Source of the DNA: Methanomicrobiales archaeon
GTDB lineage: Archaea > Halobacteriota > Methanomicrobia > Methanomicrobiales > JACTUA01
Assembly (NCBI GenBank): GCA_015660865.1
Contig: JACTUA010000005.1
Location: forward strand, 1 to 64,000
Direction of reading: 5' to 3'
DNA length: 64,000 nucleotides
Shown piece by piece: positions 24,030 to 34,539 of the stretch (position 1 is the stretch's first letter; every line of letters begins with the position of its first letter). A program made the position numbers and the translations under genes. The notes below the pieces were generated by a model. That model saw nothing but the letters and a program-made list of their open reading frames with translations, searched no databases and was not told the origin of the DNA.

Positions 24030-25019
24030 TCAGACGATGTACTTGCCGAGGAGCCGGATGGAGTTCGTCATGTCGGGTCCGAGTGGGGAGCCGAAGATGA
24101 TCTGGGTGACGCCGGCCTTTTTGAGGTCCTCGCACTTCGCCTTGACCATCTCGGGGGTACCGGCGATGGTGAAGGCATCGATCTCCTTGTCGCTGACAAG
24201 CTCGCCGACGGTCTTGAAGTCGAACTTGCCGAGGGCTTCCTTGATCTTGGCGACCTTGGCTAAGTCGAGACCATGGCGGGTGAGGAGCTCGGGCGGTGAA
24301 CCGGCTGCGATGAATGCCGCGACGATCTTCGCCGCATTGCGGGCCTTCTTCACATCCCCATCGATGGACATGGCGGTGTAGGCACCGACGTCAAAGCCCT
24401 TCTTGCCTACCGCATCGGAGGCCTTCTTGATGATCGGGATGGCGATCTGGAAGTCCTTCGGGTTGGACGCGTTGATGAGTGCCCCGTCGCCGACCCTGCC
24501 GGCGAGCTCGAGGACCTTCGGGCCCTGGGCACCGATGTAGATCTTGACTCCCTTCTTCTTGTCCGGGAGGTTGACACCGGTGAGCTTGGCACCCGCGTAC
24601 TTGAAGAACTGCATCTCGGGGCTCTTGACCTCCTCGCCTGCGCAGAGCTTCCGGATGATCTTGACCGCTTCCTCGAGGCGGGCGACTGGCTTCTCGCCCT
24701 GGATACCGATCTTCGGAAGGGTCGAGAGGTCACCGGGGCCGATGCCGAGGACGGCACGCCCGTCGGACATCTCCTCGAGGGTGCAGATGAAGGACGCGAT
24801 GGCCGCCGGGGTGTCGGTGAAGGAGTTCATAATGCCTGGCCCCATTTGCAGGGTCGTGGTCTCCTTCGCGATTGCTGCGAGCGTGGGATAGCAGTGGCGG
24901 TTGTTGTAGTGGTTGGTGATCCATGCATAGTCAATGTCCTTGTTCTCAGCAAGTTTGCAGAACTTGACAACATTCTTGACATTGACGTTACCGGGGACGA
25001 ATTCTATTCCGTAAGACAA
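24030..25019 (-). CDS. mer: F420-dependent methylene-tetrahydromethanopterin reductase
   Basis: A 329-aa Mer, a luciferase-like TIM barrel that reduces methylene-H4MPT to methyl-H4MPT with reduced F420. It starts SYGIEFVPGNVNVKNVVK. Other family blocks are LQMGPGIMNSFTDTPAAIAS, GRAVLGIGPGDLSTLPKIGI and GVTQIIFGSPLGPD. The start codon is TTG: an SD GAGGTG lies six bases before it and no ATG or GTG in range fits. The product is the substrate of Mtr, whose genes open this window. Confidence 0.97.
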   Translation of the reverse strand: MSYGIEFVPGNVNVKNVVKFCKLAENKDIDYAWITNHYNNRHCYPTLAAIAKETTTLQMGPGIMNSFTDTPAAIASFICTLEEMSDGRAVLGIGPGDLSTLPKIGIQGEKPVARLEEAVKIIRKLCAGEEVKSPEMQFFKYAGAKLTGVNLPDKKKGVKIYIGAQGPKVLELAGRVGDGALINASNPKDFQIAIPIIKKASDAVGKKGFDVGAYTAMSIDGDVKKARNAAKIVAAFIAAGSPPELLTRHGLDLAKVAKIKEALGKFDFKTVGELVSDKEIDAFTIAGTPEMVKAKCEDLKKAGVTQIIFGSPLGPDMTNSIRLLGKYIV

Positions 25020-25378: not shown

Positions 25379-27244
25379 ATGCGGGTACTTGCCATCGGAC
25401 TGGGTGGGGCAGGGGCGAGAATGGTGGATACCCTCTACGGTCAGGACATGCAGGGAAGTATCCACTGCATGTCAGCCCTTGCCGTGGATTTCGATATTGA
25501 CACCCTCATGCGCCTGAAGCACCTCCCGTCGATCGGCAGGATTCACTTCCCGCCCATCGACCCCACCACCCCCTACGATGTAGAGACCACGATCGATATC
25601 GAGCAGGTGATGACCCAGGTCCAGCAGGTCGACACCATCGAGATCGATTCGATCCTTATCTTCGCAGGCCTGGGGGGGAGCATGGTGGATGCGGCCCCCC
25701 TCATCATCCCGGAACTCCGCAAATCGTTCATCGAACCCATCTTTGCCGTGGTCACCCTCCCGTGCGGCGGCGAGGGGAAGAAGCGCTCGGCAAAAGCCGC
25801 GGATGACATCGAGAAGCTCAAACCCCTCGTCGATGCCGTGATCCTCTTTGACAACGATACCTGGTACAGGAGGATCAAGGACGAACTCGCGATCACCGAC
25901 GAGAAAGTTGCCAAGCGGGAGATCCCGAAGAGGCTTGCAAAGAAGATCCTCCACCAGCCCCTGAACAGGCGGGAGTACATCCACACCCTCCTCAATACCC
26001 GCATCGCCCGCCAGATGGGGCTCATCCTCCATGCCGGCGAGTTCAGCGAGGCCGGGGTCGAGGTCGGGGAGGTCGTCCTCGACGCGGGGGAGGTACTCAA
26101 CACCCTGGTCGGGATGGGCTTCGTGGCCATCGGGTATGCCGCCGAGAGCCTCCCCAGCGGCTATCTGAAGGTCCTCGATCGCTGGCGGCCGGCGAGCTAC
26201 TTCATCCAGAACTCGCAGAACAAGGCCTCCAGGATCGTTTCTCTCGCAAAAAAGGCGATTTATGAAGAGGTTTCCATCCCCTGCGACCTCACGAGCGCAG
26301 ATAAGGCCCTCGTTCTCATCGCGGGACCCTCCCAGGAGCTCTCGATGCGGGGGTTCCAGACCGTGAGGAAATGGATCGACCGCTCCATCGCCGGCCTCGA
26401 GATGCGTTCCGGCGATTACCCGATCCAGAACACCGGGCATGTCGGCATCATCATCATGCTCTCGGGGATGCATAATATCCCGCGCCTCGACGAACTCGCC
26501 CAGCTCCGCGAGGAGTACAGGGTCGAACTGGAGCAGGAGGGGCAGCGGTCCGAGGAGGAGCTCCCCGGTTCCCCCTCCAGACCTGAGACTCCCCCCGTAG
26601 AGGAGATCGGATCGGGAGGGGTCCCTTCCCCGGCCGTCGCGGCGAGGGAGATAAAAGACCGGATGATCACCGTCCCGGGCGCAAGGAAGACCCCGAAGGC
26701 CGGGAGATCGGCACCCCTCTTCGAGGGCCTCAACATGTCTACAGGGAAGGTCCGGGGGGGTGGGGAGACCCAGGGACGGGAGGGTGGGGTGCCCACCGAG
26801 ATCACGAGGAAGACCATCGTAAGGGGAGCCCAGGCCCCGAAGGACACCGTCTTTGGCCTCAAGGATATCCGGATGGATCGGGGTCCCGGAAAGGTTTCTG
26901 AAGCTGGCTCCGGGGTCGGGGTACCCCGTGCAACCCGGCCGAAGGAGGATGCTCTTGGTGCCGGCGATATCCGGTTCAGTAAGGTGGATAGGGCGAAGGA
27001 TGCCCTCTTCACCTCCAGGGATCTCCAGGTGAAGAACAAGGGGGTCCGGCCAACGGATACCTCCCTTCTCTCACCCGGGAAGGGGAAAGTCCCGGCAGCG
27101 GGGCAACCCAAGGAGCTCGACCCGGGTCGGAGGAGGATCGAGATGATCGATCCTTCCGCGGCCGATAAACAGGCGGGGAAGCCCGAGAGGAGACCGAGGG
27201 GCCGGGAAAAGAAAGACGACGAAGAAATCGGCTGGATCCGGTAG
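25379..27244 (+). CDS. Divergent FtsZ/tubulin-superfamily protein with long repeated tail
   Basis: A 621-aa protein. Residues 1-380 follow the FtsZ plan: first nucleotide loop GLGGAGARMVD (7-17), a degenerate version of the GGGTGTG signature (AGLGGSMVDAAP, 96-107), AVVTLPCGGEGKKR (123-136; in FtsZ typically VVTRPFxFEG), and a T7-like region GEVVLDAGEVLNTLVGMG (230-247). In the T7 region only the second of the two usual acidic residues seems kept, so GTP hydrolysis may be weak. Residues ~385-621 are a Gly/Pro/Lys-rich, probably disordered tail with a short motif repeated four times (447-458, 491-506, 525-536, 543-555). It resembles the FtsZ-like families linked to membrane remodelling rather than division FtsZ. 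Flanking genes give no operon partner. Confidence 0.7.
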   Translation: MRVLAIGLGGAGARMVDTLYGQDMQGSIHCMSALAVDFDIDTLMRLKHLPSIGRIHFPPIDPTTPYDVETTIDIEQVMTQVQQVDTIEIDSILIFAGLGGSMVDAAPLIIPELRKSFIEPIFAVVTLPCGGEGKKRSAKAADDIEKLKPLVDAVILFDNDTWYRRIKDELAITDEKVAKREIPKRLAKKILHQPLNRREYIHTLLNTRIARQMGLILHAGEFSEAGVEVGEVVLDAGEVLNTLVGMGFVAIGYAAESLPSGYLKVLDRWRPASYFIQNSQNKASRIVSLAKKAIYEEVSIPCDLTSADKALVLIAGPSQELSMRGFQTVRKWIDRSIAGLEMRSGDYPIQNTGHVGIIIMLSGMHNIPRLDELAQLREEYRVELEQEGQRSEEELPGSPSRPETPPVEEIGSGGVPSPAVAAREIKDRMITVPGARKTPKAGRSAPLFEGLNMSTGKVRGGGETQGREGGVPTEITRKTIVRGAQAPKDTVFGLKDIRMDRGPGKVSEAGSGVGVPRATRPKEDALGAGDIRFSKVDRAKDALFTSRDLQVKNKGVRPTDTSLLSPGKGKVPAAGQPKELDPGRRRIEMIDPSAADKQAGKPERRPRGREKKDDEEIGWIR

Positions 27245-27395: not shown

Positions 27396-30300
27396 TTACC
27401 GGATCAGAATCACCGGATTCTTCTCGGTCCCCGTGAGGGTCATCAGGTTCTGGGCTGACGAGCTGCCGGCGTCATCGACGTAACCGGTCACCCTCACCTT
27501 GTAGACACCTGGCATGAGGGAGCTCGTACTCATGACGTACGTATCGAATGTATCGGTCGCTACCGCTGTTGTACTCCCTGCATAGGAGTAGGCTTCCGAG
27601 TTCAGGGGTGCCACATCGATCTGCTCCCGGATTTCCGTGTCCTTCCCATTCTCATAATCAATGTGCCATACCAGGCTGGCGCTGTTCATGTCGGTTTTCG
27701 AGGTCGTTACTCCCAGATCCGAGATGGTGAGCTCCGGGGTTGAGAGGCCCTTATCCGACCCCTCCGGGATGGCGGTGATATAGGTGTCCGGCAGGGAGGC
27801 TTGGCCTATGTTGCCATTGACGTCCTGGAAATAGACATTGGAGTTGGAGCCAAGAAGCTTGAGGTTCCCAGCCATGGTCACATTCAGGGTAAAGTTCACC
27901 ACCCACTGCTGGTTCACCTTGATGGTCCCCATGGTGACATTGATCTTGCCCTTGTTCCAGTCCGCCGTGGAGTCTACCGTCTCCGAGGATCCGTCCGGAT
28001 GCGTGACCTTGGTGGATTTGCCATTGATGTACATGTACTGGAGGGCACTGGACCCGGGTTTTGAAACTCCGTTCACATCCACGCCCGTGAAGTCCAGGGC
28101 TAGGGTGGTATTTACCCCTGCCGTGTCCTTGAGGGCGCCTGCGATCTGTCCGTAGAAGTTGACCAGATCGGCGTTCGTCAGGGCGTAGTAGTACTTCCCG
28201 TTGGTGGTGTTCGCGAGGGCCCTGAGGGTTGCCTGCCCGTCGCTTGTTATGACGTTCGAATACCCGATGGCGTAGATCCTGATGTTGTTCGCCCTTGCGT
28301 ACTCGGACATGTTCTGGTCCTGGCTGGAAAGGTCCGAGAAGGAGTAATACGATTGTGTCCCGGTGTCATATGAATCTGGCGAGCATGGCACCGTGTGACC
28401 CGGGGAACAGGTCCCATCTTTCTTATACTTATCGCACGACCAGCAAGCGCCACCCCGGGCAAGAGGGTCGCCGTACCAGTTGTAGTCCCCGTCAGAGAGG
28501 ACGACGAGAGCCTTCACTGAACCGGAGTTCCCGTTGTTTTTCAGATCGGTGATGGCCTTGTAGAAGGCATAGCGGAGGGGGGTGCCGCCCGACGCGGTGA
28601 GAGCTTTAATCGCGCCATTGATCTGGTCCGGTTTGGTGGTCAGCGCCTGATCGAGGGTTACATAATCGCTGTAGTATGTAGTATCCCCGAACGAGAACTG
28701 CCCGAGGCGATCCACCGAGTAGTCGAAGAGGTCCTTGAAACCACTTGATGCGTTCTTCACCAGGTCCATGCGGGAAAAGGTGCTGCTGGAATCTATGGTC
28801 GACATCGATCCTGATCGGTCGGTGACCAGGTAGGCGTCAACAGGCTTCGGCTTCAGGGCATAGCCGTCACCCTTCACGACGATGGAGACCTCAACGGTGC
28901 TGTTCGTCACCACGGTCATGGGGTTCACGGAGGTGTACACGCTCAGGTAAGGGTAGTTCTTGTAGCTGAGAATCAGATCCTTGCTGACGCTCGTCCACCG
29001 TACCCGTACATCGGCAACCCCCATGGCCATGAGGCTGAAAAGGGGATTCTGGGTATCGGTGATGAAGGCGCCGGGAGTGAAGGTCGCCGTGGCATACCCA
29101 TTGTTATCGCTGACCGCGCTTACCTCCACCCCCATGTCAGCCGTTTTCTTGCTATCCCCCCTGATGGATGGCCCCTGGGTCTGGACATAGGTCCCTGTGT
29201 TCACCGACTGGATGCTGAAGTAAACGGTCTCTCCCGGGACCGGGTTTCCCATGCTGTCAATGACCTTTGCCATGACCGTCGCGGTCGCGGCACTATTCAC
29301 GTCCAGGCTCGCCATGCTCTGCGGGTTTGCCATGGCGACAATACCGGTGGGGTTTCCGCTCACGAACTGGAGGATCTGGGTCGCGGTAACCGCCGGGTTG
29401 TTCAGGGCCGTTGCGGTGAGGGTGTACCTCCCTGCATCTTTCTTGGGGCCGTAGGTGATGGTCACGTTCCCGTCAGAGTTCGACGCGATCACCATCTTCT
29501 CTCCGGTATTTACGGAAATGGAGAGGTTCTGGTTGGCTGATGGGTTCCCCCACTGGTCGTAGAGCACATAATTAATGGTGAACTTCGACGTCCCGTCTGT
29601 GGTGAGGGTGGGGGGATCGCCTCCCGGCGTGACGCTCATCCTGATGGAGGCGGGTTTCAGATTGGCAATACCCGCTATGCTGATGAGGGTCGCCGAGAGG
29701 GGGGCGGGGGGGGTGATGATCACGAAGTTGTCACCGGGGTGGGTACTCAGGACGAAATTCGCGTCTGCGTAGCCACTGTCGTTGAGGGCGACCGAGAGGC
29801 CCTTCACCTTGTTCTTCGCGATCCCGGCCAGGGTGGTACTCGCAACCGGGGACGGGGTCTGGACGAGGAAGCCATTGTCCCCGGTCGAGGTCGTGGCGAA
29901 GGACACCAGGTTCTTCTTCTTCTTGCTGCTGACCGGGTTCCCATTCTTGTCCGTGACACGGATCGTGATATCGGTGATGGATCCCACGGATGCACTGCTT
30001 TGATAGGAATTCGTTCCGCTCGTCGGAATATCAGCCGTTATATTCTGGGAATAGGTCTGGACCACGGGTGCAGTTGTAATTCCCGTAACGGCCGGAATGG
30101 TCACGGTAGCCGTGATGGTGGCGGTGCCCGTTGTCGCGGTAGGGAGGAAGCTGGTCACGAACTGCCCGCCGGCTGTCGTCGTGCCCGTAGTATCCTTGAG
30201 GCTCCAGGGCGAAGAGACACTCAACTGGATGTTTGCGCCCCCGATGGCTTTATTCGTACCGTCGGTCACGATGACCGTGATGATTGCAGAATCGGTATTG

Positions 30301-30452
30301 TCTCCGGTGACCCACAAATTGGAGCTCGTCACGGCCACGTTCACGGGGTTGAGGGCTGCGGCAGGTCCAACTAAGAGGAGAATACAGATACATAGGATGT
30401 AGAGCCGCCTCGTAATCTCTCCCCCCCATTGTTTCAACCTGATATCTGTCAT
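27396..30452 (-). CDS. Secreted VWA-domain surface protein 1 with Ig-like repeats
   Basis: A ~1018-aa exported protein. A signal peptide ends LLLVGPAAA. Several Ig-like domains of the invasin/Big_1 type follow (for example VTDGTNKAIGGANIQLSVSS, VIDSMGNPVPGETVYFSIQS). A von Willebrand factor A domain lies at ~540-750 with a metal-binding DRSGSMS, GGTPLRYA and VVLSDGD. Within it a Cys-rich insertion (CWSCDKYKKDGTCSPGHTVPC, with four Cys within 21 residues) is not seen in the two paralogues. After a beta-rich stretch the protein ends PVILIR, with no membrane helix or PGF-CTERM. The start is uncertain: 30452 gives a normal signal peptide, but an AT-rich TATATAAA at about 30580 would also suit the upstream ATG at 30551. 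An adhesive or matrix role is inferred. Confidence 0.82.
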   Translation of the reverse strand: MTDIRLKQWGGEITRRLYILCICILLLVGPAAALNPVNVAVTSSNLWVTGDNTDSAIITVIVTDGTNKAIGGANIQLSVSSPWSLKDTTGTTTAGGQFVTSFLPTATTGTATITATVTIPAVTGITTAPVVQTYSQNITADIPTSGTNSYQSSASVGSITDITIRVTDKNGNPVSSKKKKNLVSFATTSTGDNGFLVQTPSPVASTTLAGIAKNKVKGLSVALNDSGYADANFVLSTHPGDNFVIITPPAPLSATLISIAGIANLKPASIRMSVTPGGDPPTLTTDGTSKFTINYVLYDQWGNPSANQNLSISVNTGEKMVIASNSDGNVTITYGPKKDAGRYTLTATALNNPAVTATQILQFVSGNPTGIVAMANPQSMASLDVNSAATATVMAKVIDSMGNPVPGETVYFSIQSVNTGTYVQTQGPSIRGDSKKTADMGVEVSAVSDNNGYATATFTPGAFITDTQNPLFSLMAMGVADVRVRWTSVSKDLILSYKNYPYLSVYTSVNPMTVVTNSTVEVSIVVKGDGYALKPKPVDAYLVTDRSGSMSTIDSSSTFSRMDLVKNASSGFKDLFDYSVDRLGQFSFGDTTYYSDYVTLDQALTTKPDQINGAIKALTASGGTPLRYAFYKAITDLKNNGNSGSVKALVVLSDGDYNWYGDPLARGGACWSCDKYKKDGTCSPGHTVPCSPDSYDTGTQSYYSFSDLSSQDQNMSEYARANNIRIYAIGYSNVITSDGQATLRALANTTNGKYYYALTNADLVNFYGQIAGALKDTAGVNTTLALDFTGVDVNGVSKPGSSALQYMYINGKSTKVTHPDGSSETVDSTADWNKGKINVTMGTIKVNQQWVVNFTLNVTMAGNLKLLGSNSNVYFQDVNGNIGQASLPDTYITAIPEGSDKGLSTPELTISDLGVTTSKTDMNSASLVWHIDYENGKDTEIREQIDVAPLNSEAYSYAGSTTAVATDTFDTYVMSTSSLMPGVYKVRVTGYVDDAGSSSAQNLMTLTGTEKNPVILIR

Positions 30453-31062
30453 TAATAATATATATAGATATCCTATATGTAATATGCACTTATTGTATTC
30501 TGATTTACATACTAATACTAATAAAACCACTAATAATGGATCCGACCTCATTTATTAATCATATTGCTAATACAAACATTTATATATCAATATCGTTCTA
30601 TCCAATCTCTTTCACCATTGCATCAGGAGGCTCAATATACTGGCAGTTCTTGCTGAAATTCCCTATCCTTTCCCGGTTGGCCGAAGGATCCAAACCATGG
30701 TGAAGCCGGTTAATTTTACCGGTCGATATATAAGCATTTGCATCCCTGTTCAGAGGGAGAAGATTGATTCCCAATCTCTATCCAGTGATGAGAGATACAA
30801 CCGGGGCCGATCCCATGGAATATGAAAAATAGAGCGGGTACGGATAAGAATCATCTTGCCGTTGGAAGGGGCATCCCCGTTGCGGTGGGGCGATTGCATT
30901 ACGCCTTACCGGCGTAAGAAACTGCTGTGGAGATGGGTCCGCGGGAAGCGGCCCTGCCACCGACAGGGTCGATCTAGCCAGGGGGTGTTCAGGACACATT
31001 CTCCATCAGCCGGATCCGTAATCATGGAATGGTCATGGAAACAAAATAGGGGAGGGTGAGTC
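30453..31062. other. 610-base gap with promoter and possible structured RNA
   Basis: The left part (30453-30600) is AT-rich and holds TATA boxes for the minus-strand gene. The right part is GC-richer, and a plus-strand TATATAAG (30727-30734) is followed by several hairpins: 30761-30777 (AGATTG/CAATCT), 30899-30917 (TTACGCC/GGCGTAA) and 30952-30968 (CCCTG/CAGGG). No protein frame here is convincing. An unannotated small RNA read rightward is possible; by eye alone it cannot be separated from chance folding. Confidence 0.35.
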
Positions 31063-34000
31063 CTACTGGATAAGGATCTGGGGGGCCATTGATGGCTCTG
31101 GTATTGTTAGTGAGAGAGTCGCCTCGGGATCCTTATCCTCATCCCTTACGTGACCCGTGACCTTAATCGTATACGTACCCGGTTTAAGATCCCTGACCAA
31201 GAGGGAGTAAACCGGATTCTTGTCCTTGTCCATAGTGAAGGTAGTTATGGGCGAGAATGAGGTCGAATAGGGGGGGGCGAGCCAGATCGTCCAGGTTATC
31301 GGGTTATCAGACCCGTCATAGATGTGGTCCCATGTCAGCGAGGCGACCTGAGTATTGGTTCCATCGTCCGCCCTCCTGAGGTTCTCGATTTTGAATATTA
31401 TGCCTTCGGGCCCTTTCTCTGTCCCGTTCGGGACAGCAGTGACGTAGGTGTCCGGGATATCGACCCCTCCTTCTGTCCCCACAAAGGTGATCTTCGAGCT
31501 CTTGGAACTGAGTACCTTGATGTTTCCCTCGGTGAGAGCCATCAGGGTGAAATTCATCATCCACACCTGGTTCACGTTGATGGTGCCAGCTGAGAAATTA
31601 AACCGCTGGCCGTTATTCCAATCAGTCGTGTTGTCGACGGTATACGGGGTGGCGGGCTGAGGTGGCACGATGTAGGTGGATCGGTCGTTGTGTTCATACT
31701 GAAATACCGTATTTCCGGGGAGGGTATACGTCTTATTGACCTCCATATTCGTGAAGTCCAGCGCCACCTGGGTGTTGATGGAGGCCGCCTCCCTGAGCTT
31801 TCCGGCGATATCGATGTATATATTCTTGAGATCCGAGCCTGAGTTCGCCACGTACGCCTTTCCCCCGGTCTCGTCAGCATACGCCTGGAGCTCGGCTGTG
31901 TTGGGCCGGTCACTGGGATCGCTTCCCACGAGGGCAACGGTGAAGATCTTGATGTTGCTGCTGTTCGCCCAGGTGATGACGCTGCCTGTCCCCATGGTCC
32001 CGAGCTCGGGATACGATTCGATAGGGAAGGGGGAGGTGACGATGCCCCTGGGATCGCCGCCGGTGTTCCATTTCCCGTCGGTGAGGAGGACGATGGCCCT
32101 CACCGACCCGGCCCGGTTGCCGTTGATGACCTCAGGGTCATTGATGATCTGCTTCACCGATTCGTAGATGGCGCGGCGCATCGGCGTGCCTCCCGCCGGA
32201 ACGATGGAGTTGATGGCCTTTGTGATCTGGGTTTTATCGAACGTCAGCGGGGACTCCACATAGGCCCCCGTCATGACCCCGTTCACGCGGTAATCCTTCC
32301 CTGTGGTTCCATGCCCGGGGTACTGTGCAGTGATATAGGCGATATCGTCCGTAGAGTCCCGGTTGCTGGGATCCTGGCAGGCCTGCCCTACCTTACAGGC
32401 ATAGTCCCTCCCCGCCCGGAACGCCCATGGGGAGATATACTTCTTCGTTGCCGGATTTCCGGTGTCATAGAGGATGGCGAGCCCTCCCGCTGGATCCCCG
32501 AAGGTGACAAGGCCGATCCTGTCCTGGCCGGACGTCTGGCCCACGAAGGTGTTTGAAGCATTCATGGCATCCACCATGCGATCGTTCAGGGACTCCTCAA
32601 CGAGTTTGCCGGAAACGATACTCTCGTTGTTGAGCATGGTGGCAGATCGATCGGTGCAGAGAACCACATCGATGGGTTTGGGCCACAGGGCCCAGCCGTC
32701 TCCTACAAGCCGGACCGAGACATTCACGTATCCCCCTACCTGAACGGTCTTCGGACTGACTTCCGTGTACACGGAAAGGAATGGATAGTTCTTATAGCTC
32801 AGGTCTATGAAACGGACCACGGTTACGGTGCCAGTAAGGGAATCCACCCACGTTGCATTGACGGTTGTCGTACCCTCGGCTGTGGCGCTCCAGCCCGGGT
32901 TTTTCTCATCGGTGGTGAAGCCCCCTGGATAGTAATCGAGGATAGCCTGCCCGTCTTCATCGGTTATGACGGAGATGGGGTCATTAATATTCGACGTTTT
33001 TACCCCGCCGCTCCCGATCGCAGTGGCATTGGTCTGGATATAGGGGCTGCTGACATTCTTCTCGATCCTGAAGGTGACGGTCTGCCCCTTCACCGGGTTC
33101 CCCCTCGCATCGATGACCTTCGCGATGACATCGCCGACCATATTCGGGTTCACGTCAGAGCTTGCCATGGTCTGGGGGCTCGCGGTCAGGAGCATGTCCG
33201 TCGGGTCCATGCTTCCGAACTGCACGGTCTGGGAGATCTTGACAGTGCTGTTCTCGGCTGCGGTGGCGGTGATGGTATAGAATCCGGCATTGAGCTTTGG
33301 TCCGTAAAGGACGGTCACGCGCCCGTCTCCGTTCGTGATAAAGGTTTTCTGCTCGCCGGCGCTCGTCGTGATCTGGATAGCCTGGTCGATCGAGGGGTTC
33401 CCCCATTGATCAAAGAGATAATAATCGATGGTTGCCAGGGAGCTGCCGTCAGCCAGGATGAAGGGGGGATTCCCGGCGGGGTTGACGGACTGGGTGACGG
33501 AGAAGGGCTCGCTGTCCCCGATTCCCGCGATATCGATGAGCGACGCCGAGAGGGGGGCTGGCGGGGTTATATAAATGAAGTTGTCCCCCTGCAGGGTGCT
33601 CACCATGAATGTGACCTCTGCCCACCCCGTCTCATTGAGGGGAACTGAGATCGCTTTCAGCCGGTTTCCCGTCCCGTCCAGGAATGCGCCTGTCCCGCTG
33701 GAAACGGTGAAGAAACTTACATTCGTCGCTGCCCTCCTGCCTGTCACCGGATTGCCATACCGGTCCCTGATTAGGACTGAGATCTCTGACGGGGTCCCAA
33801 CCGTCGCGGTACCCGGGTAGAGAGAGTTCACAGAATACGGCGTACCCGCGTCAATGTTCTGAATGCGGGTAGTCGTCACCGGTGCGGTGGTCACGCCCTG
33901 GACAGACGCACTCGCGGCGATGACTGCGGCTCCGCTCCGTATGGTGGGGAGGAAGAGGGTCTGGACCTTCCCGCTGCCATCCGTCTTCAGGACAGAATCG

Positions 34001-34539
34001 CGGAGTCCCCAGGGAGCACTGGCGGAAAGAACGAGATCGGCCCCCGGGATAGGGTTGTTCCCCCCATCGGTGACGGTGACGGTGAGGAGCGCGGAGTCAA
34101 TACCGTCGGCACTCACCCAGTCCTTGCTGCTCGTTATGACCACTTTCTGCGGGTACAGGGGAATAGCCGGCTGGATCTGGATGGGGTAGGCTCTCAGGAC
34201 CTTGCCACTGGCAACCGGATAGTAGATGCCATAATACGTGACTGATCCCACGTTAAAATCGGTGGTTTGCGGTACGGGGATTGAGGTGATCTGTGCACCA
34301 TCAGGGTTATCATTGGCATACTTCCGGAGCTCCTGAACGACCCCATTCGCATAGGGTGTGAGGGGGGTCAGGTTCAGCCCCGTCTCTCCCACGAAGATGG
34401 TGTCACCGACACAGACATCCTTCACAGTCCCGGGATAGATTCCGGAGGTAGTGTTCCCCCTCGCTGCTGCAGGGTTTGCGAGCAGGAGAGCGAGGACGAA
34501 GAGAAGGGATAATTCGATGAATATGCAATCCCACCTCAT
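31063..34539 (-). CDS. Secreted VWA-domain surface protein 2 with S-layer-type N-terminus
   Basis: A 1158-aa exported protein, the largest in the window. A signal peptide (LLFVLALLLANPAAA) is followed by a ~110-residue domain (VKDVCVGDTIFVGETGLNL through GIYYPVASGK) clearly related to the N-terminus of the S-layer protein at 41814-44447 (DUF3821-like). Then come Ig-like repeats and a VWA domain at ~625-880, with DRSATM (the usual DxSxS is DxSxT here), GGTPMRRA and VLLTDGKWN. It ends APQILIQ without a membrane anchor. TATA-like TTTTATATAC at about 34576-34586 lies 35-45 bases upstream. The shared N-domain suggests attachment to, or packing with, the S-layer. Function is inferred. Confidence 0.85.
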   Translation of the reverse strand: MRWDCIFIELSLLFVLALLLANPAAARGNTTSGIYPGTVKDVCVGDTIFVGETGLNLTPLTPYANGVVQELRKYANDNPDGAQITSIPVPQTTDFNVGSVTYYGIYYPVASGKVLRAYPIQIQPAIPLYPQKVVITSSKDWVSADGIDSALLTVTVTDGGNNPIPGADLVLSASAPWGLRDSVLKTDGSGKVQTLFLPTIRSGAAVIAASASVQGVTTAPVTTTRIQNIDAGTPYSVNSLYPGTATVGTPSEISVLIRDRYGNPVTGRRAATNVSFFTVSSGTGAFLDGTGNRLKAISVPLNETGWAEVTFMVSTLQGDNFIYITPPAPLSASLIDIAGIGDSEPFSVTQSVNPAGNPPFILADGSSLATIDYYLFDQWGNPSIDQAIQITTSAGEQKTFITNGDGRVTVLYGPKLNAGFYTITATAAENSTVKISQTVQFGSMDPTDMLLTASPQTMASSDVNPNMVGDVIAKVIDARGNPVKGQTVTFRIEKNVSSPYIQTNATAIGSGGVKTSNINDPISVITDEDGQAILDYYPGGFTTDEKNPGWSATAEGTTTVNATWVDSLTGTVTVVRFIDLSYKNYPFLSVYTEVSPKTVQVGGYVNVSVRLVGDGWALWPKPIDVVLCTDRSATMLNNESIVSGKLVEESLNDRMVDAMNASNTFVGQTSGQDRIGLVTFGDPAGGLAILYDTGNPATKKYISPWAFRAGRDYACKVGQACQDPSNRDSTDDIAYITAQYPGHGTTGKDYRVNGVMTGAYVESPLTFDKTQITKAINSIVPAGGTPMRRAIYESVKQIINDPEVINGNRAGSVRAIVLLTDGKWNTGGDPRGIVTSPFPIESYPELGTMGTGSVITWANSSNIKIFTVALVGSDPSDRPNTAELQAYADETGGKAYVANSGSDLKNIYIDIAGKLREAASINTQVALDFTNMEVNKTYTLPGNTVFQYEHNDRSTYIVPPQPATPYTVDNTTDWNNGQRFNFSAGTINVNQVWMMNFTLMALTEGNIKVLSSKSSKITFVGTEGGVDIPDTYVTAVPNGTEKGPEGIIFKIENLRRADDGTNTQVASLTWDHIYDGSDNPITWTIWLAPPYSTSFSPITTFTMDKDKNPVYSLLVRDLKPGTYTIKVTGHVRDEDKDPEATLSLTIPEPSMAPQILIQ

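Follow-up and report, generated by a model that had tools for sequence, protein, structure and literature searches.

The gene at positions 25379-27244 of the window (the whole stretch of 64,000 nucleotides of Methanomicrobiales DNA analysed here) raises the question of what a tubulin-superfamily protein does when its nucleotide pocket is degraded and a long tail follows its folded core. An earlier note placed the open reading frame exactly and described its product as an FtsZ-like protein with fold landmarks of FtsZ, degenerate GTPase motifs and a repeat-bearing tail, perhaps a scaffold in membrane shaping rather than in division. The data presented here indicate that the protein, named CetZ-L, is almost certainly a paralogue of CetZ.

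A Pfam scan of the 621-residue protein found the CetZ_C domain (144.9 bits against a cut-off of 21.6, E 2.3e-42) and the Tubulin GTPase domain (46.7 bits against a cut-off of 33, E 5.7e-12), and no match to the FtsZ C-domain. The nearest solved structures in a sequence search were H. volcanii CetZ1 (4b46) and CetZ2 (4b45). The full-length AlphaFold2 model is confident over the core (residues 1-399, blocks mostly 80-95) and has a tubulin fold. When this model was searched with Foldseek, 4b46 (TMt 0.85) and 4b45 (0.87) were followed by 3zid, and the top matches were CetZ1, CetZ2 and the M. thermophila CetZ. An FtsZ identity was rejected; the TIGR00065 equivalog scored 42.1 bits, far under its cut-off of 295.2, and in the tree CetZ-L groups with CetZ and its paralogues, not with FtsZ1 or FtsZ2. 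The FtsZ-like Tubulin_2 families (Makarova and Koonin 2010) gave no Tubulin_2 match in Pfam at E <= 1, and TubZ ranked behind both CetZ and FtsZ in the sequence comparison and behind CetZ in the fold comparison. The tubulin-superfamily core of the earlier description therefore stands, but the core is that of a CetZ paralogue. CetZ-L shares with FtsZ1 and FtsZ2 the superfamily fold and the order of parts, a core followed by a linker and then by a conserved C-terminal peptide, whereas its T7 loop and C-domain are of the CetZ type. The proposal of a role other than division is supported insofar as CetZ-L is not the FtsZ of the cell, which is encoded by a separate gene. That gene is of the FtsZ1 type and is the only one found in the source genome; FtsZ2 was not found there, though it is present in a same-genus genome and in other relatives. 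The missing FtsZ2 could be an assembly gap (the assembly is 98.98% complete, in 9 contigs). The features of the gene and its immediate neighbours are collected in Table 1.

Table 1. Positions in the window of CetZ-L, its loops and tail units, and the adjoining genes
Feature	Residues	Position	Strand	Basis or remark
mer-like gene, F420-dependent, luciferase-like fold, divergent neighbour		24030..25019	-	Pfam Bac_luciferase
Whole gene, divergent CetZ paralogue CetZ-L	621 aa plus stop	25379..27244	+	ATG start
T1 loop GLGGAGAR, kept	7-14	25397..25420	+	alignment
T2 VDFDIDTL, changed	36-43	25484..25507	+	alignment
Site of missing T3 loop		25565..25579	+	alignment; canonical KGHGVGTDN
T4 loop GLGGSM-VDA, degenerate tubulin signature	97-105	25667..25693	+	alignment
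T6 FDNDTW, guanine-contacting N kept	157-162	25847..25864	+	alignment
Insertion between T6 and H7, near nucleotide face		25865..25990	+	length comparison
CetZ_C domain, the activation domain, carries T7/H8		25988..26506	+	Pfam
T7/H8 VLDAGEVLNT, D235 and E238 kept	233-242	26075..26104	+	alignment
Predicted disordered tail, rich in G, P, K, R	400-621 (222 residues)	26576..27241	+	AlphaFold2 pLDDT
Tail unit 1, QAPKDTVFGLKDIRMDR	485-501	26831..26881	+	profile score 27.1
Tail unit 2, TRPKEDALGAGDIRFSK	519-535	26933..26983	+	profile score 21.3
Tail unit 3, DRAKDALFTSRDLQVKN	537-553	26987..27037	+	profile score 10.8
Tail unit 4, GQPKELDPGRRRIEMID	575-591	27101..27151	+	profile score 13.1
C-terminal peptide DDEEIGWIR	613-621	27215..27241	+	W position in orthologues
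Large Big_1/invasin/VWA surface-type protein, convergent neighbour		27396..30551	-	Pfam and locus comparison

The source genome (1.94 Mb, with Methanomicrobiales as its close relatives) also encodes a second, canonical CetZ of 396 residues (G000:C9), which the earlier note did not mention. In an order-wide search CetZ-L was found in all 54 of the 54 sufficiently complete genomes, the source genome included, and canonical CetZ accompanies it in the match list of that search. CetZ-L is single-copy and syntenic throughout Methanomicrobiales. The best 80 named records obtained with a divergent-core profile bear names from Methanomicrobiales (Methanoculleus, Methanofollis, Methanogenium, Methanoregula, Methanocalculus, Methanomicrobium), the exceptions being generic 'Euryarchaeota' titles and one record labelled Thermoplasmata. 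One orthologue (L082, G060:C13:69799-70997) is split across two reading frames, through a frameshift or a sequencing error.

Because 54 of 56 loci have mer next to CetZ-L, and most have mtd nearby, the protein could be read as a moonlighting or metabolic protein that retained the fold and now acts in F420/methanopterin metabolism. However, dcd (50 loci), a GalT-like gene (49), ribosomal protein L3 (44) and NrpR are also syntenic, so the arrangement reflects nothing more than a stable gene order, and the kept T7 acids and CetZ-like end peptide described below favour filament contact. A metabolic role is thus highly improbable. No partner gene was found in an operon with CetZ-L. Downstream, two tandem Big_1/invasin-D3/VWA surface-type proteins of about 1,050-1,160 residues lie on the minus strand (27396-30551 and 31063-34539), and relatives of these proteins occur downstream of CetZ-L in many loci of the order, sometimes in several copies.

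In tubulin and FtsZ, loops T2 to T4 bind phosphates and T7 acts on the GTP of the neighbouring subunit. These loops were compared between 18 Methanomicrobiales CetZ-L sequences together with 6 Archaeoglobi paralogues and 23 canonical CetZ sequences; the structure model of canonical CetZ was only moderate (pLDDT 61) and was left out of the pocket comparison. T1 (family form GxGGAGxR), T5 and T6 (DN) are kept in CetZ-L. The degenerate GGGTGTG loop that had been proposed was borne out, as T4 in the canonical CetZ of the source genome is GLGGGTGSGG and the GGGTG[ST]G signature is present in none of the 18 Methanomicrobiales CetZ-L rows, where the family form is GLGGxx-xxx and the TG[ST]G element is gone. 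Three further changes had gone unremarked in the earlier note. In T2 the canonical VNTARTDL has become xDxx...L/I, with N changed to D (D37, invariant in the family) and T lost; T3 is deleted; and the segment between T6 and H7 has 28-52 residues in CetZ-L orthologues, compared with 13 in 19 of 20 canonical CetZ sequences and 19 in the other one. Since the T4 signature and the T3 GHGVG are missing, CetZ-L is classed here among the divergent CetZ paralogues, not as a canonical CetZ GTPase. The loops that bind phosphates are altered or lost, and normal GTP handling has therefore very probably been lost as well, as judged from the alignment. GDP or another nucleotide might still bind because T1, T5 and T6 are kept. 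The identity of CetZ-L and the loss of its pocket motifs are well supported.

The T7 face gives a different picture from the one drawn in the earlier note, to which one catalytic acidic residue appeared changed. Both acids, D235 and E238, are present and are invariant in 29 aligned CetZ-L orthologues. The supposed change is an E in place of the second D of FtsZ, which is the normal state in CetZ (VVDSSE), and the loop as a whole looks like CetZ T7 (VVDSSEIINT) and unlike FtsZ T7 (NLDFADVKTV).

The two halves of the core also differ in their rate of change. When identities were compared between domains, the N-domain of CetZ-L stood at 0.451 and the C-domain at 0.601, a ratio of 0.75, and the N-domain value was the higher in only 1 of 153 pairs. 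In canonical CetZ groups the same ratio is 1.06-1.21, the N-domain being better conserved than the C-domain. A second CetZ paralogue of about 301-313 residues (L287-L292), found beside canonical CetZ in genomes assigned to Archaeoglobi (group f9) from their gene content, behaves like CetZ-L; its ratio is 0.70, with the N-domain above the C-domain in 0 of 15 pairs. In both paralogues, then, divergence is faster in the nucleotide domain than in the T7 domain. The Archaeoglobi protein is the more degenerate of the two, as T1-T6 are almost erased, and its T7 (VVDTSD) keeps both acids (D and D). The two share degenerate nucleotide loops with an intact T7, inverted conservation and a canonical CetZ in the same genome, but the Archaeoglobi protein is tail-less, with a shorter core and a deleted T6 region. 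Both split from canonical CetZ in the tree with support of 100/96, or 97 with an FtsZ outgroup. A common origin is likely on this phylogeny, in which the branches are long. The Archaeoglobi paralogues do not lie at the mer locus, and synteny therefore gives this common origin no independent support.

These data suggest a model, which we put slightly short of an even chance, in which CetZ-L is a pseudo-GTPase and a one-sided form of CetZ, docking through its T7 face on canonical CetZ filaments and reaching partners through a multivalent tail. A nucleotide face that lacks the gamma-phosphate loops (T2 altered, T3 gone, T4 disrupted) and bears an insertion would not bind or turn over GTP normally, and would not accept another subunit in the usual GTP-gated way. 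The T7 face would let CetZ-L dock onto the filament that canonical CetZ forms in the same cell, at its GTP-loaded end. Docking by this face is most likely, since stronger constraint acts on T7 and its two acidic residues, and the CetZ type of T7 makes CetZ the expected partner rather than FtsZ. CetZ-L would then be a cap, a staple or a non-cycling co-subunit of the CetZ filament, and once docked it could possibly trigger hydrolysis in the subunit beneath, while the tail units and C-terminal peptide would link the filament to partners or to the envelope. Whether by capping or by co-assembly, such docking is what we infer from the two unequal faces. On this view CetZ-L would serve normal CetZ filaments as a cap, staple or scaffold and would not be a self-sufficient division protein. 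The faster divergence of the N-domain could also mean a new ligand there and not a loss of contact.

Two other modes of association with filaments bear on the same evidence. CetZ-L could alternate with canonical CetZ as an obligate co-subunit, in the manner of alpha/beta-tubulin, with its own pocket fixed, non-exchanging or empty. Canonical CetZ does co-occur in the sufficiently complete genomes examined, and Brown and Duggin (PMC9856176) suggested the two CetZ groups as possible functional pairs. However, an alternating subunit would have to keep its CetZ contact on the degenerate face, which is the part that diverges fastest, and the T6 region is also deleted in the Archaeoglobi paralogue, so this arrangement is unlikely. 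ARC3, a chloroplast regulator derived from FtsZ that reportedly regulates FtsZ ring assembly negatively (PMC5877594), offers a comparison in general logic, namely a tubulin-type fold within a regulator, and CetZ-L could similarly restrain FtsZ or CetZ rings. The likeness is one of mode only, and neither a sequence relation nor homology beyond the superfamily is claimed; the CetZ-like T7 makes FtsZ an unlikely target, and we regard an ARC3-like role as quite improbable. Docking by the T7 face on CetZ filaments remains the preferred reading. It is possible, though doubtful, that in each of two archaeal lineages a deep family of pseudo-GTPase CetZ proteins, one-sided and able to dock only by T7, was kept beside ordinary CetZ as a built-in end cap or anchor, to which Methanomicrobiales joined a multivalent tail.

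The tail is predicted to be disordered, with pLDDT below 50 throughout residues 399-621 of the full-length model. The earlier note was right that a tail is present beyond the folded core; it has 222 residues. It also counted four copies of a motif (L/V)(F/G)xxxD(I/L)(R/Q); a strict count gives two (residues 491 and 543), with a third at residues 525-526 if the spacing is relaxed. Nonetheless, the observed count was reached by none of 2000 shuffled tails. The exact repeat was replaced by a longer unit of about 17 residues that starts upstream at P-K-[DE], xRPKDxxFxGxxIxx, with the profile x-R-P-K-[DE]-x-x-[FL]-x-G-x-x-[IV]. There are 298 such units in 49 orthologous tails, most of them spaced by 15-19 residues (17-residue profile). 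When the profile was rebuilt leaving one family out at a time, each tail of families f2, f3 and f4 still yielded 2-7 units and that of the window protein 3, with fewer in f5 and part of f6; shuffled tails used as a control scored 0.02-0.22 units per tail. The unit is thus kept in orthologues, apart from one CetZ-L branch of six copies (L076-L081) in which the tail is absent, and its number among relatives ranges from 0-2 up to 12. Because that branch is tail-less, the tail cannot be essential to the core function of CetZ-L. When the source genome was searched for other proteins sharing the tail, the gene itself was the sole match. A tie between the tail and the VWA/Big_1 neighbours was considered but is not claimed: VWA neighbours are absent from all six tail-less copies, and equally from the copies with the longest tails. 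A multivalent, disordered tail is supported by the pLDDT and the conserved units, and from these we infer that it is a multivalent binding site.

A static, GTP-independent scaffold, close to the idea in the earlier note, would have CetZ-L polymerise with itself without nucleotide switching, the tail holding surface or metabolic proteins. The full tubulin-type fold with T1, T5, T6 and T7 kept agrees with this, as do the repeated tail units and a Methanoculleus transcriptome that reports a motion-responsive operon in which VWA proteins are encoded together with mer, mtd and a CetZ (PMC12008871). Up-regulation is stated there for the operon and mtd, not specifically for CetZ, and from its gene neighbours that CetZ should be CetZ-L. 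Self-assembly, however, requires both faces, and the nucleotide face is less conserved and carries an insertion of variable length, which leaves a static scaffold rather unlikely.

The conserved C-terminal peptide is another feature absent from the earlier note. W lies within the last four residues in 44 of 49 tailed orthologues and makes up 0.22% of the remaining tail. The consensus, DDGI[TD]WI, is similar both to (D)DGIEPLFE, with which canonical CetZ ends, and to the C-termini of archaeal FtsZ from this order (FEIDFLK, LIDFL, FDWIM). The C-terminal peptide of M. smithii FtsZ binds SepF (PMC8178401), and one SepF is present in each of nine genomes checked. The GI[TD]WI of most CetZ-L orthologues resembles the GID-centred, SepF-binding FtsZ peptide, and equally the canonical CetZ end GIEPLFE. 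Nearly all canonical CetZ loci (L088-L107, L147-L176, L293-L301) have a conserved acidic end, x[IL][EDKRQ][PS]LF(E), which is likely a partner-binding end.

Compared with canonical CetZ (H. volcanii CetZ1 and CetZ2, and the copy in the same genome), CetZ-L has the same fold, CetZ_C domain, T1/T5/T6 loops, T7 acids and acidic end peptide with a hydrophobic terminus, but it has lost the T4 signature and T3, its T2 is altered, it carries a T6-H7 insertion and a 222-residue repeat tail, and its nucleotide domain evolves faster than its T7 domain. According to Brown and Duggin (2023, PMC9856176), each Methanomicrobiales genome has two CetZs, one Halobacteria-like and one deeper-branching, and a 'Non-Halobacteria-like' group spans Archaeoglobales, Methanomicrobiales and Methanosarcinales. 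CetZ-L is very probably their deeper-branching second CetZ; the portions of their main text covered here contain no description of the phosphate-loop loss, the tail, the repeats or the end peptide. Other CetZ-like groups have been described in a superfamily study (PMC9871819). A degenerate or long-tailed CetZ was not found described in the open-access literature searched.

The conserved branch of CetZ to which CetZ-L belongs is uncharacterised and probably consists of pseudo-GTPases. To our knowledge, answers to how CetZ filaments are capped, anchored and made polar are lacking outside Haloferax, and we know of no CetZ partners in methanogens. If the proposed model is true, CetZ, the third major archaeal line of the tubulin superfamily, has a dedicated pseudo-GTPase partner that is conserved across a methanogen order and paralleled in Archaeoglobi. 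It would then offer a direct handle on the capping, anchoring or polarity of CetZ filaments, and the tail units are concrete baits for CetZ partners.
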